In this document: positions 20,532 to 32,149 of the stretch, in pieces
Numbering within the stretch: position 1 is the stretch's first letter
Layout: each line of letters begins with the position of its first letter
NCBI RefSeq assembly: GCF_003184905.1
Contig: NZ_QFRU01000009.1
Span: 1 to 32,149 of the forward strand
Length of the DNA stretch: 32,149 nucleotides
Origin: Bacillus sp. CGMCC 1.16541
GTDB taxonomy: Bacteria; Bacillota; Bacilli; Bacillales; Bacillaceae_H
Direction of reading: 5' to 3'
The notes under the pieces: generated by a model
Seen by the model: only the letters and a program-made list of their open reading frames with translations
What the model was told of the DNA's origin: nothing
Database searches by the model: none
Translations under genes and position numbers: made by a program

Positions 20532-21302
20532 ATGTCTATCTCAAATAATATTTATCGTTTTTTTATTTTATGGTACATATGTGGTGTAGTCTTGCTTACA
20601 TTTGATTTACTACCATCTTGGCTAGAATGGGCAAATGCCGTCTTTTTATACGCGAGTGGAACACTTGCCTTCATTTACTTGATAAAAGCGTATAATGTTT
20701 TAACAGCTACGCTTTTATCGCTTTTTGTTATTTCAGCTACAATCTTTGCAGAATGGCTTGGGGTAACATACGGCTTTTTATTCGGTTCGTATCATTATGA
20801 AAAAGATTTTGGTGCTCAAATTATGGGGGTACCTTTAACGATAGGTTTTGCATGGCTAATGGTCGTTGTGACTAGCCGTGTTTTAACCCTTCAAGTGATG
20901 AAAAATCGACACGTGCATAAATGGGTAAAGCCGTTTGTCTACGCAACCATTACCTCTCTTTTTGCAGTCGTCATGGACTTAGCCATTGATCCAGTTGCAT
21001 ATGTTGTTAAGCAATACTGGATATGGGAAGCTCAAAGTATTTATTATAATATTCCGTTTTCCAATTTTGTTGGGTGGTTTGCGCTCTCATTTTTTATTCA
21101 ATTTTTTGTTTACTTTATTCTTAATCAACAAAAAGCGAAGGATATACTGATTTGGGAAAAGCGAATGGCAGTTTTATATGTGTTAGTTGTGGTCATGTTT
21201 CTAATCATTGCGCTAACATCTAAATTATGGCTTTGTTTTGTTGTCACGACATGTTCCCTCATTGTCCTATTAGTACTCTATTGGAAAGGGAAGCAGAAAT
21301 GA
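20532..21302 (+). CDS. carotenoid biosynthesis protein, CruF-like family
   Basis: The 256-residue integral membrane protein has about seven hydrophobic helices. The motif A-T-I-F-A-E-W-L-G-V-x-Y-G-F-x-F-G-x-Y-H-Y (about 72-94) and the later V-M-D-L-A-I-D-P-V-A stretch are landmarks of the CruF/bacterioruberin-hydratase family, whose members hydrate or otherwise modify carotenoid end groups. First gene of a four-gene operon with an acyltransferase, a glycosyltransferase and a desaturase, so it likely tailors a C30-type carotenoid here. ATG 20532 follows AAAGGGGGAG; TATAAT at 20493-20498 may be its -10 but no good -35 is seen. Confidence 0.82.
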   Translation: MSISNNIYRFFILWYICGVVLLTFDLLPSWLEWANAVFLYASGTLAFIYLIKAYNVLTATLLSLFVISATIFAEWLGVTYGFLFGSYHYEKDFGAQIMGVPLTIGFAWLMVVVTSRVLTLQVMKNRHVHKWVKPFVYATITSLFAVVMDLAIDPVAYVVKQYWIWEAQSIYYNIPFSNFVGWFALSFFIQFFVYFILNQQKAKDILIWEKRMAVLYVLVVVMFLIIALTSKLWLCFVVTTCSLIVLLVLYWKGKQK

Positions 21303-22021
21303 TTTATCCGAAGAAAAGTGAACGGTTTGAACAATTGTTTCACCCTTTTGTAGCACATCAATTAAAAAAACACTTTTATAAAATCTACTTATATGAAGAA
21401 GCAAACATTCAACAACATCGTCCGACCATTTTTATTGTCAATCACTCAAGTTGGTGGGACGGGCTTGTTTGTTATTATTTAAATAGAGTCAAGCTAAAGC
21501 ATGATAGTTATGCGATGATGTCTGAACAAGGGGTGAAGGATTTCTCGTTCTTTCAAAAAATCGGTGCTTTTTCAGTCAATCCATCTTCACCTAAACACGT
21601 GATTCAGTCGTTGCGATATGCTAAGAAGTTAGTCAATGAACAGAAAAGTGTCTGGATTTTTCCACAAGGAAAGGAAGAACATCTAGAGAAAAGGCCATTA
21701 CAGTTTTCAAAAGGAGTTTCTTACGTTATTGACGAAGTTGAAGATGTCACGGTTGTGCCTATAACGTTTTATTATACGTTTCGACACGATCAGCGACCTG
21801 AATTGTTTATTACAATTGGAAAGCCCGTCCATTCTTCGACCTTTTTATCAGATTCTCGTGATAAAATAACGCAAAAGTTGGAAACAATGGTGACAAAACA
21901 ATTAGATGCATCTCGTGAGAAATTAATAAAGGAAGAAGTGACATCATTCTCCATTTTGTTAGAAGGTTACAAAACGGTTAGTGAGTGGCTCACGTGGTGG
22001 AAAGCGAAGGTGAAAAGATGA
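21299..22021 (+). CDS. PlsC-like acyltransferase (CrtO-type carotenoid tailoring)
   Basis: The 240-residue lysophosphatidate-acyltransferase-fold protein has the catalytic block N48-H-S-S-W-W-D54 (N-H-x4-D) and the acceptor motif I-F-P-Q-G-K-E, a variant of F-P-E-G-T. The open frame extends back to 21227, but ATG 21299 overlaps the upstream stop by ATGA, has AAAGGG at good spacing and gives the family length. Lying between a CruF-like gene and a glycosyltransferase, it most likely acylates the sugar of a glycosylated carotenoid, as CrtO does for staphyloxanthin. A general phospholipid role is possible but less likely from context. Confidence 0.83.
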   Translation: MIYPKKSERFEQLFHPFVAHQLKKHFYKIYLYEEANIQQHRPTIFIVNHSSWWDGLVCYYLNRVKLKHDSYAMMSEQGVKDFSFFQKIGAFSVNPSSPKHVIQSLRYAKKLVNEQKSVWIFPQGKEEHLEKRPLQFSKGVSYVIDEVEDVTVVPITFYYTFRHDQRPELFITIGKPVHSSTFLSDSRDKITQKLETMVTKQLDASREKLIKEEVTSFSILLEGYKTVSEWLTWWKAKVKR

Positions 22022-23124
22022 GTGTGTATATCACAATTTTTCTCATGTTATTTTTAGGTACGATTATTAACATTACGTTGCTTCCAACATTGAAAAAGAA
22101 AGCAAAAAAAGAACGAGAATCCTATCCGCTTATTTCTGTTTTGATTCCAATGCGTAACGAAGAAAGAAATGTAAAGCGAGTCATGCAAGCAATAAAGTCT
22201 CTTACGTACCCGAACATAGAGTGTATTATTTTAGATGATCAATCCACAGATAGAACGAGAGACTACTTAGAGGAAGAAATGAGAGGTCATCAACCGTTTA
22301 AAGTGATTGATGGTAAACCACTCCCAACAGGTTGGGTTGGTAAAGTTCATGCCTGTCACCAATTATCTACGCATGCAAAGGGAGATTATTTATTATTTAT
22401 CGACGCAGATGTATCGTTGAAACATGATACGCTTGAACAAGCGCTAGCATTAAGTGAAAAGCGGAAGAGCTCCCTTCTTACAGGATTTTCGCGCTTCCCT
22501 GTTAAGCATTTCTTAGAATCGCTTATTGTACCTATGCAGCATGTTGTGGTGTTTAGTTATTTGCCAGTCATTCTCGCTAACTATACAAACTATCCATCGG
22601 CGACAGCGGCACATGGTGCATTTATGTTTTTTAAGCGAGAAGATTATGATCAAGTTGGTGGTCATCAAGTTGTTCAGTCTTCGTTAATTGAAGATGTACA
22701 TATTGCACAAGAATTTAAAAGACAAGGATTGAAAGTCGTACTTGCAAACATCACTTCTCACGTTTCTTGTTTTATGTATGAATCAGATGAAGAAGTGTGG
22801 AATGGGTTTGCTAAAAACATCTATACAGGGTTAGGCCGTTCCGTTCCTTCGTTGCTTGCACTGTCATTGTTTTTTATCATGTACTATATTTTCCCTGTTC
22901 CGTTGTTTATTTACGGCCTTGTAGCAGGTAATGGGTTTGCTTTGGTCCCGCTTGCTCTTGTCATTGCTCAACGACTAATCATTGATGTAGCTGCGAGACA
23001 GAAGTGGTATCTCTGTGTGACGATGCCGCTCGCTGCACTTGCTTTAATCGTGCTCATGCAACATTCGATGTGGAAAGGTGTGCAAAAAATCGGATACGAA
23101 TGGAAAGGGAGGCATTATCAATGA
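22018..23124 (+). CDS. family 2 glycosyltransferase (CrtQ-type)
   Basis: The 368-residue protein has an N-terminal membrane helix (about 3-20), a GT-A fold domain with V-L-I-P-M-R-N-E-E (about 38-46), D-D-Q-S-T-D-R-T, the metal-binding D-A-D-V and E-D (S-L-I-E-D-V-H), and three to four C-terminal membrane helices. This is the plan of CrtQ, which glucosylates the carotenoid acid in staphyloxanthin synthesis. ATG 22018 (ATGA overlap, AAGGTG site) is preferred to the longer frame at 21985. Sugar and acceptor are inferred from operon context. Confidence 0.85.
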   Translation: MSVYITIFLMLFLGTIINITLLPTLKKKAKKERESYPLISVLIPMRNEERNVKRVMQAIKSLTYPNIECIILDDQSTDRTRDYLEEEMRGHQPFKVIDGKPLPTGWVGKVHACHQLSTHAKGDYLLFIDADVSLKHDTLEQALALSEKRKSSLLTGFSRFPVKHFLESLIVPMQHVVVFSYLPVILANYTNYPSATAAHGAFMFFKREDYDQVGGHQVVQSSLIEDVHIAQEFKRQGLKVVLANITSHVSCFMYESDEEVWNGFAKNIYTGLGRSVPSLLALSLFFIMYYIFPVPLFIYGLVAGNGFALVPLALVIAQRLIIDVAARQKWYLCVTMPLAALALIVLMQHSMWKGVQKIGYEWKGRHYQ

Positions 23125-24593
23125 AAAAAGTAGTCATTGTTGGAGCAGGACTGGGTGGACTTGCAGCCGGTATTGTTCTCGCGAAATCAGGGTTTCATGT
23201 GACCATTTTCGAACAAAATGACCATGTGGGTGGAAAGATGATGCCTGTTCAACTAGGTGACTATCCATTCGACTTCGGGCCTAATACCATTACCATGCCA
23301 GCTGTGTTTCGCCGTGTGTTTGAAGAAGCAGGAGAGAAGTTAGAGGATTACTTAGACCTTATCAAACTAGAACACCATACAAACAATTATTACATGGATG
23401 GTTCCTCTTTTGCGATGACGACAAATCATGATGAGATGATGAAACAATTTGAAGTGTTAGATCCACATGCAGAAGTTAGTTACTCTGACTATTTAGAAGA
23501 AGTAAAGTTTTTGTATGAAACAGCCGAACAGCATTTCTTTTATCGTACGTTTTCTTCTTGGACAGACTATACAAATCTTTCTTTATTGAAAGCTCTTCTT
23601 CAAGTTCGACCATTCGAAACAATGGATCGGTTTCATCGTCGCTATTTTGAAAATGAGAACATTCGGAATGCATTTAACCGTTATGCAACATATATTGGTT
23701 CTTCTCCATATGTATCTCCCGCAACATTTGCACTCATTGGTCATCTTGAAATGACAGATGGAGTTTATTATGTAAAAGGGGGAAATACAAAGATTGCTGC
23801 TGCATTTGCACAAGTATTCAACAAGTTAGGTGGTACTCTTCATACGAATTGTAAAGTAAAAGAGGTTATCGTTAAGGATAAACACGTTCAGGGGATTAAG
23901 ATTGAAGGAAATGAAAAAGTGGAAGCTGATATTGTTATAGTCAATGGCGATTTACTAAAAGCGTACCCTGCATTAGTAAGCGAAGAGAATCGTCCACACT
24001 TTTCAAATCAAAAGATACAATCGTACGAGCCATCCATTTCAGCATATGTTATCATGGCCGGTTTGAAAGAAAGGAACAGCAATTTTATTCATCATCAAGT
24101 GTATTTTGCACAAGATTACAAGAAAGAGTTTGATGAGCTCTTTATAAAAAAACAGTTACCGACTGATCCGACTATTTATATTTGTAATTCATCTTACACA
24201 GATCGTGACATTTCACCAGGTGATAATTTGTTTATGTTAGTGAATGCACCAGCCGTTACTCCTGGACAAGAACGAGATAATGAAGGATACAAAGAAGTCA
24301 TTTATGATAAATTGAAGCGGTTTGGTGTGGATATCTCGTCTCAACTCGCGGTAGAAAAAGTCGTAACACCTAATGAAATTGAACGAAAGTTTGGTTCGTA
24401 CCGTGGAGCACTTTACGGAATTAGTTCAAACAAAAAGATGGATAGCTTTTTACGACCGAGTAACGTGGCAAAAGATGTGGGACATTTGTATTTTGCAGGA
24501 GGTACCACACATCCAGGTGGTGGATCTCCAATGGTTACCATTAGTGGGTTGAATGTTGCCAGGTTACTAAAAGAGCGCTATTCCGACGAATAA
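23121..24593 (+). CDS. CrtN/CrtP-family carotenoid desaturase or oxidase
   Basis: The 490-residue flavoenzyme has an N-terminal dinucleotide-binding motif G-A-G-L-G-G-L-A-A-G (about 8-17), F-E-Q-N-D-H-V-G-G-K-M (about 33-43) and the C-terminal carotenoid-oxidoreductase signature Y-F-A-G-G-T-T-H-P-G-G-G-S-P-M. Such enzymes desaturate phytoene or diapophytoene, or oxidise terminal methyl groups (CrtP); the sequence alone does not separate these. As last gene of the operon, with acyl- and glycosyltransferases upstream, the CrtP-like oxidase role is attractive. Start is ATG 23121 (ATGA overlap, AAAGGGAGG). No CrtM synthase is in the window. Confidence 0.87.
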   Translation: MKKVVIVGAGLGGLAAGIVLAKSGFHVTIFEQNDHVGGKMMPVQLGDYPFDFGPNTITMPAVFRRVFEEAGEKLEDYLDLIKLEHHTNNYYMDGSSFAMTTNHDEMMKQFEVLDPHAEVSYSDYLEEVKFLYETAEQHFFYRTFSSWTDYTNLSLLKALLQVRPFETMDRFHRRYFENENIRNAFNRYATYIGSSPYVSPATFALIGHLEMTDGVYYVKGGNTKIAAAFAQVFNKLGGTLHTNCKVKEVIVKDKHVQGIKIEGNEKVEADIVIVNGDLLKAYPALVSEENRPHFSNQKIQSYEPSISAYVIMAGLKERNSNFIHHQVYFAQDYKKEFDELFIKKQLPTDPTIYICNSSYTDRDISPGDNLFMLVNAPAVTPGQERDNEGYKEVIYDKLKRFGVDISSQLAVEKVVTPNEIERKFGSYRGALYGISSNKKMDSFLRPSNVAKDVGHLYFAGGTTHPGGGSPMVTISGLNVARLLKERYSDE

Positions 24594-24711
24594 AAAGATT
24601 GAGAAAGTAGTCATTTGTCTAGTAGATATAGTAAAATATAGATATAGAAGGTAAGAATGCAAATGTGCTTGCTCCTCTACATACTAAATGAAAAGGTGAT
24701 CGTATTTTTCT

Positions 24712-25467
24712 ATGATTTGGTTTACAGTATTAATCGTGACTATTTGTATCATTCGCCCGTATATTGAAAGCATCTCTGTTCGACGCATTGCATCGGAGAG
24801 GAAAAAGGTAAGCTATTATAAAGAACAGTCTTTTTTTTATGCCCTTATTTTGCTCTTTTTTGTTTTGCTTCTTTTTTACTTTCATCTATCATTCGCTTCC
24901 TTTGGATGGAATCCGGTTTACCTTCAAACGATTCTAGATTCAAATGCGTATCCAGCCATAGTGGAATACTTATTGTTGTTTAGCTTTGCAGGTTTCCTGT
25001 TTATTTCATTTATGATTAGTTGGATGAACGATCACGGGGAGCGGATTTTTTTAGAGCAAGAGCTTCCACTATCTGTTGAGGCAACTGTCCCGAATACTTC
25101 GAGAGAGCGTTCATGGTGGTTTGTCTATAGTGGTGTTTCAGGGGTTGTTGAAAGTATAGTCTATTTCCCGGCTTTCTATTATTTTTTTCAAACGCTCCTT
25201 TTTATTGAAAACACGTGGCTTCTTGCAGTTGTGATGGGCTTTGCTTACTTTATGTCACAACTTGCTTTTCAACGTGATCGTCTTAGCTTCCAAACGTTGT
25301 TAGTAGGAACAGGTCTTGCTGCTTTATACATAATGACGAATTCAATTGTACTCATTTTATTCTTTTATGCATTAAGCTTTTTAGTCTATGATGTGTACCA
25401 AGATGATTTGAATTATCTTGAATCCAAAAGTACTCTTTCTAAGAGAGTCAATAGACGTTCTCAGTAA
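24712..25467 (+). CDS. membrane protein resembling a catalytically dead CPBP (CAAX-like) protease
   Basis: The 251-residue protein has about six to seven hydrophobic helices. Its last third follows the layout of CPBP/Abi intramembrane proteases: a helix with V-V-E-S-I-V-Y-F-P-A-F-Y where E-E-x3-R is expected, then F-A-Y-F-M-S-Q-L for F-A-x-x-H-x, and A-L-S-F-L-V-Y-D for H-A-x-x-N. Glu-Glu, Arg and both His are missing, so proteolysis is not expected. This homology is by eye and tentative. It follows the carotenoid operon by 118 bp in the same direction, with AAAGGTGAT before ATG 24712 and a terminator after. Confidence 0.7.
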   Translation: MIWFTVLIVTICIIRPYIESISVRRIASERKKVSYYKEQSFFYALILLFFVLLLFYFHLSFASFGWNPVYLQTILDSNAYPAIVEYLLLFSFAGFLFISFMISWMNDHGERIFLEQELPLSVEATVPNTSRERSWWFVYSGVSGVVESIVYFPAFYYFFQTLLFIENTWLLAVVMGFAYFMSQLAFQRDRLSFQTLLVGTGLAALYIMTNSIVLILFFYALSFLVYDVYQDDLNYLESKSTLSKRVNRRSQ

Positions 25468-25513: not shown

Positions 25514-25972
25514 TAAAGGTAAATCTCTTTTGCTAAACAACTGTAGTATGACAAACAAAGTGATAAATAACTAAATAACGTAATATCTCGTAAATGTTAG
25601 GTAGACCTCGTAAAAATACCTTGATAAATCAGTATTTATAGGAGATCATTACTCGTAATAGAAGTTCAGTAGCAGAAAGCGCAAAATGATAAAAATTGAC
25701 GGTTTCGATAGGTTCGACATCGAATGCTGTCTTTTTAAATTTGCAGGTTAAAATATGTTTAAATCATTGATATATTGCGTTTAAATGCGTTTAAAAGATG
25801 ATTTTTTTGTCTATAATGATTAATTTAATTGGTCAACTAATCATTGGTCAATTGAACAACTGGTTTACCAATAGTTAAAACACTGAAATATCAAGGGCTT
25901 TGAAGAAATTGTTGTTGAATATTCTTCTTTATAGCGCAACTAGATTTTTATACAACTTATTGTATGTTTATT
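25514..25972. other. gene-free left end of the prophage with repeats
   Basis: No gene seen in about 460 bp. It contains three CTCGTAA repeats (25587, 25607, 25652), the inverted pair TTCGAT/ATCGAA near 25707-25727, a tandem TGCGTTTAAA pair (25776-25795) with a related TATGTTTAAA at 25754, a GGTCAA pair (about 25831 and 25847), and AAATTGTTGTTGAA (25906-25919), which recurs in the operator region. Such density of repeats fits transposase and regulator binding at a phage end. Confidence 0.55.
25587..25660. repeat. three CTCGTAA repeats, candidate transposase end-binding sites
   Basis: CTCGTAAAT (25587), CTCGTAAAA (25607) and CTCGTAATA (25652), all same orientation, spaced 20 and 45 bp, within about 110 bp of the inferred left end. 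Mu has three MuA sites (L1-L3) at its left end; this is the analogous position. Confidence 0.4.
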
Positions 25973-26815
25973 CTAACTGAAATTTTGAACATATAAACAC
26001 TCTGCTGCTTCTGGAGAAATCCAATCCAGGACTTTTCCGAGAATCCTCACATCACAATCATTATTATACACCATAGGCTCTATATCGTCGTTTTCAGATA
26101 CTAAGACGGCCACGCCAGTTTCTAATCTAAATCGCTTAATGGTTACATGATTATCAACCATAACAAGTGCTATTTCGTTGTTATCAACATATTCTTGTTG
26201 CCTCACGATCACGAAACCTCCATCTTTGATGCCAGCCTTAATCATTGAATTCCCCTTTACCCTGACCGAAAAACAATTGCTATATTTTTCAGGGACCTCT
26301 AAATATCCTTCAACAAAACGAATTACTTCTATAGGAACTCCAGCTGCGGCAGCTCCTAATACTGGTATTTTGGTAGCTGTGACCTCTCTGATCTCTTTGA
26401 CCTCACTTGCGACAGACTCATTTTCTTTTCTTTTAGTGTTAAGCTTGTATATCCTTTCGCTCTTTTGGTGGCCTCTGTCATTAACATTTTGAGATTTTCT
26501 CATAATAGCGAAGTTAACATACTCGCTCAAAAAAATTTTTTCATCGTTTGACAGTTCTTTTTCCAATTGAGCGATATCGTAATCGGTGTTTAAAAACTTC
26601 ATCTTTCCTCTATGCTCTGTCCCTTTTAGTAACCAATCTGTTGTTACTTCGAAAAAGTCAGAAGCGGTTACTACAAAATCGGAGCGAGGAGTAGTCTTTT
26701 CATTCTCCCAGTCACTAATTCTACTAGATTTAGTACCTATTTTTCGACCTAATTCATCCATCGACAAACCATACTTTTGCCTTAGTTCACGCAATCTTTT
26801 ACCAAAACTCAACAT
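25973..26815 (-). CDS. LexA/CI-like phage repressor with S24 autoprotease domain
   Basis: The 280-residue regulator has an N-terminal XRE helix-turn-helix (about 4-60; L-S-M-D-E-L-G-R-K-I-G-T-K-S-S-R-I-S-D-W-E), a linker, and a C-terminal S24/LexA domain (about 150-270). Predicted self-cleavage is at Ala158-Gly159 (G-A-A-A-A-G-V-P), with Ser190 (G-N-S-M) and Lys227 (T-I-K-R) as catalytic pair; all are present, so induction by RecA/DNA damage is likely. The frame runs upstream to 26956, but ATG 26815 has AAGGGAG at proper spacing and begins the domain. It plays the role of Mu c but is of a different, lambda-like family. Operators at 26839-26916. Confidence 0.88.
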   Translation of the reverse strand: MLSFGKRLRELRQKYGLSMDELGRKIGTKSSRISDWENEKTTPRSDFVVTASDFFEVTTDWLLKGTEHRGKMKFLNTDYDIAQLEKELSNDEKIFLSEYVNFAIMRKSQNVNDRGHQKSERIYKLNTKRKENESVASEVKEIREVTATKIPVLGAAAAGVPIEVIRFVEGYLEVPEKYSNCFSVRVKGNSMIKAGIKDGGFVIVRQQEYVDNNEIALVMVDNHVTIKRFRLETGVAVLVSENDDIEPMVYNNDCDVRILGKVLDWISPEAAECLYVQNFS

Positions 26816-26838
26816 ATTCACTCCCTTTCTGTAGTAAA

Positions 26839-26916
26839 TTTCAACAAAATACTCCGTTTTTGGAAAATTGTTGTTGAAATTACTCCGAATATGGAGTAAT
26901 ATGAAATCAACAACAA
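26839..26916. promoter_or_regulatory. nested-palindrome phage operators
   Basis: Two composite sites. In the first, TTTCAACAA (26839-26847) and TTGTTGAAA (26871-26879) flank ACTCC-N6-GGA (26851-26864). In the second, TTGTTGTTGA (26868-26877) and TCAACAACAA (26907-26916) flank the perfect palindrome ATTACTCC-N6-GGAGTAAT (26879-26900). The sites share the TTGTTGTTGAAA block. They lie between repressor and divergent early gene, over the early promoter. Confidence 0.7.
26874..26902 (+). promoter_or_regulatory. early (lytic) phage promoter
   Basis: TTGAAA (26874-26879), a 17-bp spacer and TAATAT (26897-26902). Both boxes are inside the operator palindromes, so repressor binding would block it. 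Confidence 0.6.
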
Positions 26917-27015
26917 AGGAAACTACTTCCATAAAACGATAAAAAAATAAAAACACGAACCTTAATTATAGCATTTTCGACACAAAAACGACAAAAAGAA
27001 AGAAGGTGTTAAACG

Positions 27016-27417
27016 ATGGCTAGTAATTTAGAAACCACAACTAGACAAATGATTGGTAACAAAATTAAAGTTCACTTCGGACGTTCGAAAAAAGTCGAAC
27101 GTGTATTAAGAGAGGATCAGCAAGGGTTGTACATACGTTACGATAACCAACGCGTTTCTGTTAGAGCAGAAAACAAAGAATCGAACGTTATTGTGTATGT
27201 CGTAATCCAGCAGCAGGAACAAATACAAGAATGCGCCGACGTCGCTGCAAATGAAGTTAATAAAAGTGAACGCAAAGTGATACCAGAATTTAAGTTTTAC
27301 CAAAAGCAGTTTAGAAAAAGAGTTCAAAAAATTAAGAATCAACAATTAAATAACAAACACGACTTTAGTTACAACTATCCAGTGACGGTAACGCAAGAAT
27401 TTGAGAAGCCACCATAA
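27016..27417 (+). CDS. phage early protein, unknown (133 aa)
   Basis: First rightward gene after the operators, in the position of Mu ner. ATG 27016 follows AAGAAGG. The 133-residue product is very basic and Gln/Lys-rich; residues about 13-65 alternate strands (K-I-K-V-H-F-G, Y-I-R-Y, V-S-V-R, V-I-V-Y-V-V-I), the rest looks helical (F-Y-Q-K-Q-F-R-K-R-V-Q-K-I-K-N-Q). No helix-turn-helix is visible, so it is not an obvious Ner. A nucleic-acid-binding role is possible from composition only. Confidence 0.65.
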   Translation: MASNLETTTRQMIGNKIKVHFGRSKKVERVLREDQQGLYIRYDNQRVSVRAENKESNVIVYVVIQQQEQIQECADVAANEVNKSERKVIPEFKFYQKQFRKRVQKIKNQQLNNKHDFSYNYPVTVTQEFEKPP

Positions 27418-27428
27418 TTCGGGAAAAT

Positions 27429-27499
27429 CACCTCCATATTGTTCTATTTATTCGACAAAATGATGTAAAAACCTTTCCTGAAAGGTGGTGTCGGTTTTT
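27429..27499 (+). promoter_or_regulatory. possible RNA attenuator before the second early gene
   Basis: Two exclusive hairpins can form. One is ACCTTTC-CT-GAAAGGT (27471-27486), which buries the ribosome binding site; the other is AAAAACC (27467-27473) with GGTTTTT (27493-27499), which resembles a terminator. An anti-Shine-Dalgarno-like CACCTCC (27430-27436) upstream could also pair with AGGTGG. Confidence 0.4.
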
Positions 27500-27722
27500 G
27501 GTTGAAATAACCGCAGTCGAAAAAGAAAAAATTGTCGAGCTCGCCGTTGCATCAGGAGCTTCTGATATAAACATCCATAAGTTTACTAATCGTTCTGGAT
27601 ATATGGTTGCAATAACGATGAATGATACAAGAAAATTCATAGAACTAATTGAGGCTATTCAAGAAAATGGTTTATCAGACAAAGAGATTGAATTCATTAG
27701 AGTTATTCCTGGGGAGGAGTAA
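27498..27722 (+). CDS. phage early protein, unknown (74 aa)
   Basis: TTG 27498 follows AAAGGTGGTG by about 10 bases. The 74-residue acidic protein (V-E-I-T-A-V-E-K-E-K-I-V-E-L-A-V-A-S-G-A-S-D-I-N-I-H) has an alpha-beta pattern and ends G-E-E. No family recognised. The start codon lies in the T run of a terminator-like hairpin, which suggests control by RNA structure. Next gene follows 2 bp after its stop. Confidence 0.65.
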   Translation: MVEITAVEKEKIVELAVASGASDINIHKFTNRSGYMVAITMNDTRKFIELIEAIQENGLSDKEIEFIRVIPGEE

Positions 27723-27724
27723 AT

Positions 27725-27877
27725 ATGAAGAATGGGAAACGACCAACCAAAAAGCAGAAGCAGCAGATCGAAGCTGCGGGGCTAAATTCGAGCGATTGGT
27801 TAATTGTTAAAAACCTCGAACAAGAATTACATCTTGTGCATCGCTCGAAAATGGAGGTTATAACAATTTCGATTTAA
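27725..27877 (+). CDS. small phage protein, DUF6906-like (50 aa)
   Basis: ATG 27725 has GGGGAGGAG at ideal spacing. The product starts M-K-N-G-K-R-P-T-K-K-Q-K and continues A-G-L-N-S-S-D-W-L-I-V-K-N and H-R-S-K, matching the short family I know from Bacillus phages as DUF6906 (basic N-terminus, L-N-x-x-x-W-L-V-x-K core, C-terminal H-R). Function unknown. Too short to show in length-limited gene calls, but the start and family pattern are good. Confidence 0.75.
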   Translation: MKNGKRPTKKQKQQIEAAGLNSSDWLIVKNLEQELHLVHRSKMEVITISI

Positions 27878-27893
27878 TAGAGAGGTGATCAAC

Positions 27894-28112
27894 TTGGCCC
27901 GTAAGCAGAAAATAACGCCTTTTGGGTGGGAAGTGAAAAAGCGTTTAGCTGAATTGCAAATGACTCAGACTGAATTTTGTGAACAAGAAGGAATTCCCGC
28001 CAATCGTTTTTCTGAGCTTATCTCTGGAACAAACCAAGAAGCTAGGTACATGAAAAAATACAGAATAATTGTAGCTGAAAAACTAGGAATAGAGATTAGA
28101 GAAGTTTCTTAA
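27894..28112 (+). CDS. XRE-type helix-turn-helix protein (Ner/Cro-like)
   Basis: The 72-residue DNA-binding protein has a helix-turn-helix at about 15-50 (V-K-K-R-L-A-E-L-Q-M-T-Q-T-E-F-C-E-Q-E-G then A-N-R-F-S-E-L-I-S-G). It starts T-P-F-G-W-E-V-K-K-R-L, common in small Bacillus phage regulators. GTG 27885 is also in frame, but TTG 27894 is favoured by GAGGTGAT just upstream. By position and fold it is the best candidate for the Ner/Cro function that turns down early or repressor transcription. Confidence 0.8.
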   Translation: MARKQKITPFGWEVKKRLAELQMTQTEFCEQEGIPANRFSELISGTNQEARYMKKYRIIVAEKLGIEIREVS

Positions 28113-28250
28113 AAAATAGCGCAACTAAAAAATAAAAAAGCCCCACTTTTTAGTGGAGGCAAAATAAAAATCATTTAGTACATGATACTTCAAAATTCGA
28201 GTATCTGTAAATAGCAATTAATCCATCCATCGCAGAAAAGGAGGGTAGAG
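28113..28250. promoter_or_regulatory. gap before transposase gene with minus-strand terminator and inverted repeat
   Basis: A hairpin (GCCCCACT against AGTGGAGGC, 28139-28160) has its T run only when read on the minus strand, so it would stop leftward transcripts. GATACT (28184-28189) and AGTATC (28200-28205) form an inverted repeat that could bind a regulator. No clear promoter for the transposase gene. Confidence 0.5.
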
Positions 28251-30227
28251 ATGGAAAGTGTAATTCTGCTAAGTACAAAAGAAGTTGCGGAGCTGCTTGG
28301 AATAACGAAACAAGCGGTGTCTAAAAAGATTAACAACGGTGAATTAACCGCGATGGTTGATAACGCAAAAAAAAGAGGCGGTAGAGCTGGGAAACAGTTT
28401 TTAATCCCCCTCTCCTCTCTACCACCGAAAGCACAAAAGAAATATTTAGCTCAACAGCGAAAACCATCAGATATAAAAGAAGAAATTGAAGCAAAGCCTT
28501 TCGAGGAATTTACCGAAAGCGAACGTGAACAAATCGCCTTCTGGAGAAAATGCCTGGATGATTGGCAGAAGTTCCGTTCCCAGGGTGGTAAAAAAACCGA
28601 ACGAGATATTCAGTTCGTCGAGCTCTGGAATATTCAGCAGCCCGATCATGAACTTTCCATTCCTACATTATATAGAAAGTACAAGATGTGGCAGGAAAAA
28701 GGAGATATCGCTCTAGTGGACAAGCGCGGCGGTTGGAATCGAGGTCAATCAGAAATACCTGAAATAGCCTGGGCGATTTTCGAACAACTTTATCTGCACG
28801 AAGGCAGGCCAAGCATAAGATATGTTTACAAATTGGTCAGTACATGGGCGAAACACGAAATGCCTCAACTGCTACCTTTGCCTAGTTATGAAACATTCCA
28901 GAGAAATGTAAAGAGCATCCCTCTTCCAGTCATTCGCCTTTTCAGATTCGGCGAGAAAGATTATGAGGACAAGGCAGCTCCTTACATATTGAGAAAATAT
29001 GAAGAGTTAGCATCGAATGAAATATGGGTTGCAGATAACCACGAAATCGACGTAATTGTCGAGCGTAAGAACGGTTCGCAATATCGTCCGTGGATCACTG
29101 CTTACCAGGATGTCAGATCGAGGAAAATTGTCGGGAAATTCGTATCCGAAAAACCGACATCAGATACTAACCTATATGCGCTGCGTGATGGAATTTTAAG
29201 ATATGGAATCCCAAGCATTGTCTACACGGATAACGGAATGGACTTCCTTGTCACTGATATTGCTGGGCGCGGTCGCAGAAAAACTCGCAAAAAAGCTGAA
29301 GGCGAGCATCAACCTCCTCCAATTTTCGAACGTTTGGGAATCGAAATGTGGAATGCAAAGGTTAAAAATGCTCGCGCTAAGATTGTGGAACGTGCCTTCC
29401 TTGACTTTAAGAATGAATTTTCGCGTATATGTAGCACGTTCACTGGTGGAAATATCACCGAGAGACCTGAAAGCCTTAAATACACGCTGAAAGATGGAAA
29501 ACTCGTGATGCCTGAAGACGAATTCAAGGACCTCTTCAACAAATACATTGAAGGATGGTTCAATCACCAAGAGCATTCTGGCCAGGGCATGAAAGGTAAG
29601 TCTCCTAATCAAGTATATGCAGAAAATCTTGTTGTTAAACGCACCGCAACAGAAGAAGACTTGAATTTAATGTTAATGCGTTCGTCCAGAATGCTGAAGG
29701 TTGGTCGAATGGGCGTGGCTCTTACTATGTACGGAGAGAAATTCTTCTACGCTCACGATGACCTCATCGCTAAATATCAAGGGCAATCCGTTTATATTCG
29801 CTTCGACCCTGAAAACATGGGACAAGTTCGAGTCTACGACCAGGAGGATAGATACATACTAACAGCCGTCAACCGAGAAGCCCTATCTTACAATGCGACG
29901 AAAGACGACTTGAAGAAATTCGCTAGTGAAGCCAAGCGACTTAAAAAGCTCACGAAAGAACGTGGCGAAGCAGCTGAACAATTATTGTTACAAAAAGGCG
30001 TTAAAGCGCCAACTGCTCTCGATATCATGCAAATGGAAGCTGAATACAACATAGCGAACCAAGAAGAAGCTGAAGCAAAAGTTATTGAGCCTGTTCGCGC
30101 AAATGAAAAACCTATTGAAACAGTGTTGCCGAGAGCTTCTGGTGACGACGAAGCATCAGTTGTTGACTTGAATCGCATGATCAATAACCTAAAACGATTT
30201 AAACAAGGAGGAAATTCGGATGAGTGA
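28251..30227 (+). CDS. MuA-type DDE transposase
   Basis: The 658-residue transposase has an N-terminal MerR/excisionase-like winged helix (about 7-55; E-V-A-E-L-L-G-I-T-K-Q-A-V), further helical DNA-binding segments to about 240, an rve/DDE catalytic core (about 250-440) and a C-terminal beta-barrel and helical tail (about 470-650). Proposed catalytic residues are Asp262 (V-A-D-N-H), Asp327 (Y-T-D-N-G) and Glu380 (A-K-I-V-E-R-A-F), the last matching the A-K-P-x-E-R-A-F block of MuA. It would cut and join phage ends and recruit the MuB-like ATPase. Strong AAAGGAGG site. Overlaps the next gene by 8 bp. All core residues intact. Confidence 0.93.
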   Translation: MESVILLSTKEVAELLGITKQAVSKKINNGELTAMVDNAKKRGGRAGKQFLIPLSSLPPKAQKKYLAQQRKPSDIKEEIEAKPFEEFTESEREQIAFWRKCLDDWQKFRSQGGKKTERDIQFVELWNIQQPDHELSIPTLYRKYKMWQEKGDIALVDKRGGWNRGQSEIPEIAWAIFEQLYLHEGRPSIRYVYKLVSTWAKHEMPQLLPLPSYETFQRNVKSIPLPVIRLFRFGEKDYEDKAAPYILRKYEELASNEIWVADNHEIDVIVERKNGSQYRPWITAYQDVRSRKIVGKFVSEKPTSDTNLYALRDGILRYGIPSIVYTDNGMDFLVTDIAGRGRRKTRKKAEGEHQPPPIFERLGIEMWNAKVKNARAKIVERAFLDFKNEFSRICSTFTGGNITERPESLKYTLKDGKLVMPEDEFKDLFNKYIEGWFNHQEHSGQGMKGKSPNQVYAENLVVKRTATEEDLNLMLMRSSRMLKVGRMGVALTMYGEKFFYAHDDLIAKYQGQSVYIRFDPENMGQVRVYDQEDRYILTAVNREALSYNATKDDLKKFASEAKRLKKLTKERGEAAEQLLLQKGVKAPTALDIMQMEAEYNIANQEEAEAKVIEPVRANEKPIETVLPRASGDDEASVVDLNRMINNLKRFKQGGNSDE

Positions 30228-31119
30228 ACAATTGCACGAAAACCAATTACGTCAAGCACTGAAAGAACATATCGAAACGTCAGAGCAATCTCAAAGCTCT
30301 ATTGCAAAGGCAATCGGCATTTCTGCCCCTGCCCTATCTCAATTCATGAACAGCACTTATGCAACGCCTCATAAGTTGCTACCAAAAATCGAAGCTTATC
30401 TATCGGTCCATAAAAAACGTCAGATTGCGCCTAAAAAGCCCGACTTTGTACCAACAAGTATTTCGACAACTGTGATTAACGTCATCACTTATTGTCATAT
30501 CCAAGGAACAATCGGAGTCATTTATGGCGATGCAGGGGTCGGCAAAACACAAGGAGCGAGAGAATACTGCCGAAACCAACCTGAAGCTTTGTTTATCACG
30601 ATTTCTCCAGCTTATTCAGGTCCGAAAGGCGTAAGTGAATTAATAGCTGAGGAGCTGCGCGTTCCTGAAGCGCGTTCCATCCGTCGTATGCATCGAGATA
30701 TCGTGAAAAAACTTGAGGGTTCAGGTCGAGTAATTATTATCGATGAAGCCCAACATCTTACCCATAGAGCACTTGAGCATCTTCGTTCAATCAGCGACGA
30801 GAGTGGAGTTGGATTGGTGTTAATCGGTAATCAGGAAGTTTATACGAAAATGCTTGGTCGTGGAGAGGCAGCGTTCGCGCAGCTCTTCTCCAGAATGGCA
30901 ATGAAAGAGAATGTACTGACAAACAACATTAAACAAGCAGACATGGATCTTCTATTCCCTCTTCTATCCAAAGAAGAAAAGCAATTCCTGCTCAGAATCG
31001 CCAGGAGCCGTTGGGGAATCCGAGGAGCTGTCAACGTGTTTGTGAATAGTGCGAGTAACCAGGACACGACAGTCACTGGACTTGCAAGTGTTGCAAAATA
31101 CATGGGAATCGGCGCGTAA
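30220..31119 (+). CDS. MuB-type AAA+ target-selection ATPase
   Basis: The 299-residue protein has an N-terminal helix-turn-helix (about 22-50; S-S-I-A-K-A-I-G-I-S-A-P-A-L-S-Q-F) as in MuB, and an AAA+ core with Walker A G-D-A-G-V-G-K-T (103-110) and Walker B V-I-I-I-D-E-A (171-177). A sensor-like L-I-G-N-Q follows (201-205). MuB binds target DNA, activates MuA and gives target immunity. It starts inside the end of the transposase gene (8-bp overlap, AAGGAGG site inside the upstream gene), so the two are translationally coupled. Confidence 0.93.
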   Translation: MSEQLHENQLRQALKEHIETSEQSQSSIAKAIGISAPALSQFMNSTYATPHKLLPKIEAYLSVHKKRQIAPKKPDFVPTSISTTVINVITYCHIQGTIGVIYGDAGVGKTQGAREYCRNQPEALFITISPAYSGPKGVSELIAEELRVPEARSIRRMHRDIVKKLEGSGRVIIIDEAQHLTHRALEHLRSISDESGVGLVLIGNQEVYTKMLGRGEAAFAQLFSRMAMKENVLTNNIKQADMDLLFPLLSKEEKQFLLRIARSRWGIRGAVNVFVNSASNQDTTVTGLASVAKYMGIGA

Positions 31120-31144
31120 GGCGCTATTTGAATGCCCTTCAACA

Positions 31145-31179
31145 GCCGTTTAACGAACTTTCGAACGCTGTTAAACGGC
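31145..31179. repeat. 10-bp inverted repeat between muB-like and next gene
   Basis: GCCGTTTAAC (31145-31154) and GTTAAACGGC (31170-31179) are perfect complements around a 15-nt loop. No T run follows, so it is not an ordinary terminator; an RNA-processing or protein-binding site is possible. Confidence 0.6.
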
Positions 31180-31205
31180 CTAACACATTTGAAGGAGGAA
31201 AAGGT

Positions 31206-31592
31206 ATGGCTCGCTGGAGCATTGATGCTGAAGTTTACAGAGACTTAAAGCGCGCAGGGTTAACGGACCAACAAATATGTGATAGATATCGGATTCTTCC
31301 TGAAACCTTGCGAACTTATAAATACAAATGGCAACGACAAGAAGAGGAATCCAAGGAACGGCAATTTTTCTTAATCGAGATGAGAAAAGCAGCTGGCTTT
31401 GACTTAGAAACTATGGCCGAAAATTTAGGAGTTAAGCGAAAGTATTTGGATGTCCTGGAGAACGAGCCAAGAGGGGTAACGATTCAGGACAAACAATGGG
31501 AAAAGTTAGAAACTACTATTCGAGTAATGGTAAAGAGTGAGATTCGCAGAAAACGAGACCGAGAGACTCTTATCATACCTGATAGTTTTTAA
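31206..31592 (+). CDS. phage protein with two helix-turn-helix-like regions (128 aa)
   Basis: ATG 31206 has GGAGGAAAAGGT directly upstream, and is preferred over the longer frame from 31128, which would run through the inverted repeat. The 128-residue product has a first helix-turn-helix (about 10-40; Y-R-D-L-K-R-A-G-L-T-D-Q-Q-I-C-D-R-Y) and a second XRE-like one (about 58-85; M-R-K-A-A-G-F-D-L-E-T-M-A-E-N-L-G-V-K-R). It is basic and probably DNA-binding; a regulator of the middle operon is plausible. Exact family not recognised. Confidence 0.75.
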   Translation: MARWSIDAEVYRDLKRAGLTDQQICDRYRILPETLRTYKYKWQRQEEESKERQFFLIEMRKAAGFDLETMAENLGVKRKYLDVLENEPRGVTIQDKQWEKLETTIRVMVKSEIRRKRDRETLIIPDSF

Positions 31593-31648
31593 ATTTCATA
31601 GATTGCGTAGAAACCAAAACAAAAAGATAGATTAGGAGGTCCATAGAA

Positions 31649-32065
31649 ATGGCAGCGAAAAAACGCGGTCGGAAGCCGAAAACGAAAACAAAAAGACAGC
31701 TAATGAAAGAACTTGGTCTCCTTCCAGAAAAAGAAAATAAACCGAGAGTGAATCGTAGAAAGCTAGTTTTAGAGCTTCAAGAACACAGCAATAATCAACC
31801 TTTAAAATATTCTGCTATTCAGGATTTTTACAATGTAAAAAGTTATGTGCTTGGCAGATTGGCAGCGAAAGCAAAAGGTGAGCGATTCCTGGAACGCTCT
31901 ATTACAGATGAAGAGCTTGGGATGGTCAAAGTCATTTTGGCTATGTACAACCTACATTACATCCAAGAACTACATAAAGAAAACACAACATACGGACACG
32001 TTTTCGAAGCTCTGGAAGCAGCATTTGATAATTGCAAATTGCTAGAAAAGGAGAGTGTTTCATGA
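31649..32065 (+). CDS. phage protein, unknown (138 aa)
   Basis: ATG 31649 follows TAGGAGG. The 138-residue product has a strongly basic N-terminal tail (K-K-R-G-R-K-P-K-T-K-T-K-R), an AT-hook-like R-G-R-K-P at residues 6-10, and a helical acidic C-terminal half. The tail suggests nucleic-acid contact. No family recognised. Its stop overlaps the next start by ATGA. Confidence 0.7.
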   Translation: MAAKKRGRKPKTKTKRQLMKELGLLPEKENKPRVNRRKLVLELQEHSNNQPLKYSAIQDFYNVKSYVLGRLAAKAKGERFLERSITDEELGMVKVILAMYNLHYIQELHKENTTYGHVFEALEAAFDNCKLLEKESVS

Positions 32066-32149
32066 GAAAGAGATTGCATCTATATCATTGTGAATCTTGC
32101 AAGCTAGATTTTGGAGTTTCAGAAGATTTTGAAGATCAAAGTGTCATAG
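32062..32149 (+). CDS. phage protein with zinc-ribbon-like start, cut by window edge
   Basis: ATG 32062 overlaps the preceding stop (ATGA) and follows AAAGGAGAG. The 29 visible codons read M-R-K-R-L-H-L-Y-H-C-E-S-C-K-L-D-F and stay open to the window end. H-C-x-x-C suggests half of a zinc ribbon or knuckle. Nothing further can be said. Confidence 0.6.
   Translation, partial: MRKRLHLYHCESCKLDFGVSEDFEDQSVI

Follow-up and report, generated by a model that had tools for sequence, protein, structure and literature searches.

An apparently intact BalMu-1-like transposable prophage with a LexA-like repressor and a diversity-generating retroelement in Bacillus sp. CGMCC 1.16541

A Mu-like transposable prophage is present in contig NZ_QFRU01000009.1 of Bacillus sp. 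CGMCC 1.16541 (contig of 156,581 bases, genome of 3.97 Mb). The window covers the contig from base 1 to base 32,149 and contains the left 6.6 kb of the element, and the contig segment 25000–84999 was taken to follow the element past the window. All coordinates are those of the contig unless a locus is named. The prophage spans 25542–67122 (41,581 bp), with 34.97 kb beyond the window and its right end at 67122 in the same contig. According to its ends and gene set, it is very probably a complete, apparently intact transposable myophage prophage of the BalMu-1 type, and the mechanism proposed below is part of this reading.

The bounds of the prophage are given by the following features:
25542–25700, plus strand, left phage end beginning TGTAG, with the end-type repeats TGATAAA, CGTAA and GCGCAAAATGATAAAAA
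25537–25541, left copy of the target duplication ACAAC (right copy 67123–67127; empty site in relatives)
25514–25541, minus strand, truncated 3' end of a host ABC-transporter permease gene (remainder to the right of the phage, up to 67903)

The termini are 5'-TGTAG...CTACA-3' with the 5-bp duplication ACAAC on both sides, and the GCGCAAAATGATAAAAA repeat of the left end is present again at the right end. When the flanks are joined at the duplication, the permease end is restored to ...ISIWLFSKRDLPL and stop (...WLFSKRDLPL and stop); with the phage present, it reads ...WLL. The joined flanks align collinearly, through the junction, with the Metabacillus iocasae locus L087 and its twin L090 (77% identity over positions 28–998, junction at 973). 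The C-terminus FSKRDLPL or FQKRDLPL was found in all eight relative loci compared (L087, L088 and L090–L095). These correspond to six distinct sequences, as L087/L090 and L088/L091 are apparently the same; L096, a second match (43%) in one genome, and the phage's own locus L089 were omitted. The relatives with names are M. iocasae and Priestia megaterium, and on this basis the host is assigned to Priestia or a near relative. TG...CA ends, a 5-bp duplication and an empty site in relatives together show that the phage was integrated by Mu-type transposition into the last codons of the permease gene. The earlier note on this DNA placed the start of the element at 25514; the permease gene split by the phage has its stop codon at this position, and the actual start is 25542. 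The note would have given up a Mu-like phage if the right end indicated site-specific integration. The right end shows instead the 5-bp duplication within a protein gene, away from an attachment site, and no tRNA gene was found in the window or in segments L002–L004. The G+C content is 40.6% inside the element and 36.9% in the examined flanks. As for variable insertion sites, the genome contains a single phage copy, and a search of 397 genomes sampled from the order detected no other MuA match (E 1e-20).

The two transposition genes are located in the window:
28251–30227, plus strand, transposase MuA, 658 residues (Mu-transpos_C 5e-13, DDE_2 7e-10, phrog_310 transposase 3.5e-126)
30220–31119, plus strand, transposition ATPase MuB, 299 residues (AAA_22 2.3e-20, phrog_296 DNA transposition protein 3.4e-77)

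The MuA-type DDE transposase has no inner stop, is 57–59% identical to the transposase of BalMu-1 over its length, and is neighboured by the MuB ATPase. A match at 3.5e-126 cannot be put down to chance. The virion genes follow beyond the window, all by family match except the last row:
38592–39155, small terminase
40067–41839, terminase (large)
41854–43368, portal
43371–44432, minor head protein
45019–45636, scaffold
46060–47142, major head protein
49109–50500, tail sheath
50514–50954, tail protein
51652–54786, tape measure
up to 59215, baseplate-type tail genes
from 64562, amidase-like frame (by eye only)

A single element carries the head, portal, terminase and tail genes. The tail sheath gene is present, and the particle is therefore expected to have a contractile tail. 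A lack of structural genes downstream had been named as the other finding that would overturn the note; terminase, portal, capsid and contractile-tail genes were found there. The identification as a Mu-like phage of a Gram-positive bacterium stands, with the MuA and MuB family matches, the structural genes, and the ends with the 5-bp duplication.

The repressor gene and its operator-like sites are located to the left of the early genes:
25973–26815, minus strand, repressor, 280 residues from ATG 26815 (N-terminal HTH_19 7e-14, C-terminal Peptidase_S24 2.9e-25, 88.7 bits)
26819, 26850 and 26881 (26819–26898), operator-like sites TACTCC-N6-GGAGTA (2, 2 and 0 mismatches; 31-bp spacing)

The best matches of the repressor among solved structures are LexA chains (best 3e-17). 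The motifs AAAAG (residues 155–159), GNSM (from 188) and TIKRF (from 225) are present. According to LexA alignments and what is known of such repressors, we take AAAAG to be the cleavage site (Ala-Gly), and GNSM and TIKRF to hold the catalytic Ser and Lys. The Ser is aligned in all three LexA alignments shown. An N-terminal helix-turn-helix (HTH) with S24, Ala-Gly, Ser and Lys, as in LexA/CI-type repressors, is found here, with the Lys exact in 6a2q and its near-copy but not in 3k2z. The Mu c type has only an HTH and no peptidase domain, which does not agree with the S24 score of 88.7 bits. The pairing of MuA/MuB with a LexA-like rather than a Mu c-type repressor, as proposed in the note, is confirmed by these features. 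The operator-like trio separates the repressor from the early genes. Five TACTCC-N6-GGAGTA sites with at most 2 mismatches are present in the window against 0.54 expected, and none of 100 shuffles reached five. Three sites within 80 bp appeared in none of 1000 random sequences modelled on the phage part of the window. The pattern was derived from the perfect site, so these statistics are flattered. No exact GAAC-N4-GTTC (LexA-box-like) site was found in the 85 kb examined. According to the repressor domains, induction by DNA damage (SOS) is likely.

In the proposed mechanism, MuA and MuB would insert the phage and then replicate the phage DNA by transposition. The HTH-S24 repressor would keep the early genes off at the three operator-like sites. 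Upon DNA damage, RecA-stimulated self-cleavage at Ala-Gly would remove the repressor, and replicative transposition would start under SOS control. Heads would be filled from integrated copies, and a diversity-generating retroelement (DGR) would rewrite the variable region of a right-end protein, altering what the particle binds.

The link between S24 and induction has been discussed for Mu-like phages. In excerpts of PMC8541194, S24 and HTH are found in the repressor of MuM16-1 and in all the other mitomycin-induced Mu-like phages checked, S24 is also found in BcepMu, and only HTH is found in the repressors of Mu, D108 and B3. S24 repressors are proposed there as linked to mitomycin C induction.

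Several points weigh against the mechanism. The link of S24 to damage induction is a correlation, and the excerpts of PMC8541194 also give exceptions to it: an S24-bearing Burkholderia prophage is induced at high temperature, and SfMu is induced by UV though no peptidase domain was found. The repressor Lys is one residue off the lysine of the best LexA chain, 3k2z. The genome carries a single copy, so transposition in this strain is deduced indirectly. Induction, cleavage, particles and packaging are read from sequence.

The alternative that survives best, although we consider it unlikely, is a Mu-like phage whose induction does not go through S24. The repressor would be lost through heat, an anti-repressor or proteolysis, and damage would not induce the phage. 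The heat-induced Burkholderia prophage (PMC8541194, in excerpt) is in line with it, and so is the fact that cleavage is deduced from motifs. The repressor has kept its Ala-Gly, Ser and Lys motifs, however, and S24 occurs in every mitomycin-induced phage checked in those excerpts.

A defective remnant, which has kept its genes and no longer makes particles, is less probable still. Prophages often decay, and the single copy and the indirect knowledge of the phage would fit a remnant. Against it, both ends and the duplication are present, and the scanned genes for repressor, transposition, head and tail form open frames, most of which match their families over the full length or close to it, including MuA without an inner stop.

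It is very improbable that the locus is an integrative element, or a site-specific prophage, that has domesticated a Mu-type transposase, since nothing at this locus favours it, even though four loci described below (L068, L070, L073 and L074) suggest non-phage elements with short MuA-like transposases, and the duplication in a protein gene, the TG...CA ends, the virion gene set and the tRNA result all speak against it.

The preferred reading, an intact BalMu-1-like transposable phage, was compared with known systems. The closest named phage is BalMu-1 of Bacillus alcalophilus (NC_030945, KP063902, KP063903). Its ends are similar by eye (the first ~50 bases are alike, and the last bases too). 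Both phages have, in the same overall order, a repressor, early genes, A, B, Gam, GemA, a DUF3486 gene, terminase, portal, a PBSX-type contractile tail, and Avd and reverse transcriptase (RT) near the right end. DNA matches to BalMu-1 cover only 44% of the early region, with ~66% identity. Unlike the repressor described here, that of BalMu-1 (224 residues) has an HTH but no S24 match. The phage, complete by its sequence, is an addition to the Mu-like Firmicutes group; it differs from BalMu-1 in the type of its repressor and in how its DGR is laid out. For a BalMu-1-like phage that lives in a different host genus and has the other kind of repressor, the exact ends, the empty site and the gene set are now available. 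The matched pair may serve as a test case for whether S24 decides the response of a transposable phage to DNA damage. Pseudomonas phage MP29 (Casadabanvirus) and, in excerpts of PMC8541194, Shewanella MuM16-1 have an HTH and S24 repressor beside the transposition genes as here, but their hosts are Gram-negative, and MP29 MuA is ~24% identical over 56% of the query. The nearest S24-type relative found is the prophage L067 (genome G625, same class; repressor match 3.9e-64), which differs in a 337-residue repressor and another host family.

The frequency of S24 repressors in Mu-like phages was examined by a phrog_310 profile search of whole genomes at 1e-30 (398 sampled from the class and 398 from the phylum). 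The profile was used because a genome-contig search with a two-row MuA alignment gave 171 pattern matches and no relative. In single-protein MuA searches (1e-20), the phage's own genome was the sole hit among 10 genomes of the genus, 16 of the family and 397 of the order. The profile matched 72 of the 398 class genomes and 82 of the 398 phylum genomes. A gap in score separates strong matches, at 2.3e-74 or below (10 class rows and 15 phylum rows, own included), from the rest, at least 6e-62 and many over shorter stretches. Besides the own match there are 9 class and 14 phylum strong matches, 23 in all, and 20 of them were taken for repressor scoring. Three were left aside: G924, in which MuA begins right at the end of the contig, and the second match in each of G622 and G1110. 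Six of the 20 were excluded: L068, L070, L073 and L074 (short-transposase layout), L077 (contig ends too near) and L076 (ambiguous repressor).

The repressor carries S24 in three of the 14 scored Firmicutes loci (L067, L081, L082) and lacks it in 11 (L069, L071, L072, L075, L078, L079, L080 and L083–L086). Pfam was run on three of these 11 (L072, L080, L085), and the other eight were judged by one-sequence phmmer and short length (136–197 residues). L076 has a 212-residue HTH-S24 protein 4.3 kb upstream of MuA; if it is counted as S24, the fraction becomes 4/15. Among named phages, MP29 has S24, whereas Mushu, YPCBV-1 and BalMu-1 have no S24 match. The S24 rows are spread over more than one clade of the MuA tree. 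At least 4 changes are required over 17 Firmicutes rows, and 5 when MP29 and YPCBV-1, both long branches, are added; L076 and L077 were placed without an assigned repressor state. The window phage groups with BalMu-1 and L067 in a supported clade (98/96) with both repressor states. The pairing of the window phage with BalMu-1 inside it is weaker (85/82), so either repressor state may be the ancestral one. It is conceivable, with a little less than an even chance in our view, that Firmicutes transposable phages repeatedly gain and lose S24 by swapping the C-terminal half of the repressor while the transposition genes stay closely related, toggling between damage-induced and damage-independent replicative transposition. 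The three phages of this clade would then be a matched set with both states.

Other observations were made in these loci. A tail rich in alanine is common to the short S24-less repressors L069:9075–9488, L084:6988–7419, L086:7161–7589 and L071:7445–7900 (three have GEEAA... and one has REEAAA...); it might act as a protease tag for induction instead of S24. In L068, L070, L073 and L074, a MuA-like transposase of 455–512 residues follows a frame of 197–215 residues and precedes one of 270–272 residues, another layout. Among viral contigs, MuA matches were found only in a 39,960-bp record with identical MuA (IMGVR_UViG_2885767954_000001) and a 39,873-bp record of BalMu-1's length. The former begins 1,235 bases before MuA; if it comes from this prophage, its predicted left bound would drop the repressor and the true left end.

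The DGR is located near the right end:
59839–60237, Avd (bAvd 1e-26)
60259–60355, template region (TR), 97 bases, 21 A
60492–61559, RT (phrog_1423 2e-131)
61495–63858, DGR target, 787 residues (phrog_36643, a family without function)
62109–62205, variable region (VR), residues 205–237 of the target

TR and VR differ at 14 of 97 positions, and 13 of these fall on template adenines, of which there are 21 (hypergeometric P 6e-10); the sole other difference is G to C. Asparagine codons of TR are changed to other residues in VR (GANRALRGNN... to GAYRALRALD...). RT, Avd, TR, VR and differences at template adenines, which define a DGR, are all present. The target shows weaker matches to Hoc-like head decoration and minor tail families. 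This protein, encoded near the right end, is probably a virion protein. In BalMu-1 the target precedes Avd and VR is near the 3' end of the gene, whereas here the target follows RT and VR is at residues 205–237 of 787. Faecalibacterium phage Mushu (NC_047913), reported as Mu-like with a 5-bp direct repeat (PMC5883640, in excerpt), shares the order Avd-TR-RT-target with VR inside the target, but its repressor has no S24 match and its MuA is in another clade. The RT is 45% identical to that of Mushu and 38% to that of BalMu-1. Because the order is that of Mushu and not BalMu-1 and the RT is nearer that of Mushu, the DGR cassette and the transposition genes seem to have had separate histories. 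The phage thus combines, in a single transposable element, a DGR with a likely damage switch.

Rfam RT-9 matches between TR and RT here (60372–60461; L003:15373–15462), and it occupies the same slot in Mushu (L098:32875–32974). In this slot, RT-14 is found in BalMu-1 (L005:37143–37286) and Phage_DGR RNA in BPP-1 (L101:1251–1383). RT-9 and RT-14 may be structured template-side RNAs of their DGRs. Four other DGR stretches (L102–L105) gave no Rfam match at the gathering score, and literature searches on RT-9 and RT-14 as DGR RNAs gave nothing useful among the matches listed.

The pairing of MuA/MuB with an S24 repressor is not new, as it occurs in MP29, in three of 14 other Firmicutes loci and in Mu-like phages described in the excerpts of PMC8541194. 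DGRs in Firmicutes Mu-like phages are already known, and each component of this phage is in print. The note overrates the surprise, since S24 repressors of Mu-like phages and the mitomycin link are published in those excerpts, and BalMu-1 is a named close Bacillus relative; among 171 MuA-matching phage records, the three of BalMu-1 are the only ones from Bacillus. None of the titles among the literature matches listed pointed to such a phage from Priestia, in searches not designed to prove absence, and the matches for BalMu-1 were, judging by title, other works. The matches listed from PMC3564109, on P. aeruginosa transposable phages, include no mention of S24.

The remaining early genes are as follows:
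27016–27417, plus strand, early gene, 133 residues (phrog_24088 2.9e-12, match without function)
27498–27722, plus strand, small early gene, 74 residues (phrog_20207 1e-6, short partial match)
27885–28112, plus strand, Ner-like early regulator, 75 residues (phrog_1468 transcriptional repressor 1.2e-18)
31128–31592, plus strand, early gene, 154 residues (phrog_27946 7.7e-24, weak HTH match)
31649–32065, plus strand, early gene, 138 residues (phrog_22110 3.9e-18)
34998–35576, Gam (family match)
36432–36818, GemA-type gene, named by its place in BalMu-1 (PHROG without function)

In BalMu-1, a small gene labelled 'transcriptional repressor', gp04, is likewise located between repressor and transposase, as is 27885–28112 here. 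The early region also contains an N6-methylase-like gene (L002:9401–10099) and an ASCH-domain gene (L002:11819–12289). About 0.9 kb before the terminase frame (39155–40067; L002:14156–15068) shows little coding sign by eye; it gave no Rfam match at E 0.5, and its one 111-residue frame gave no Pfam or PHROG match. In the host DNA, a carotenoid-type cluster (desaturase-, glycosyltransferase- and acyltransferase-like frames, by eye) is located at 20532–25467, directly to the left of the phage, and a cobalamin riboswitch (132 bits; L004:10766–10950) is located to the right.

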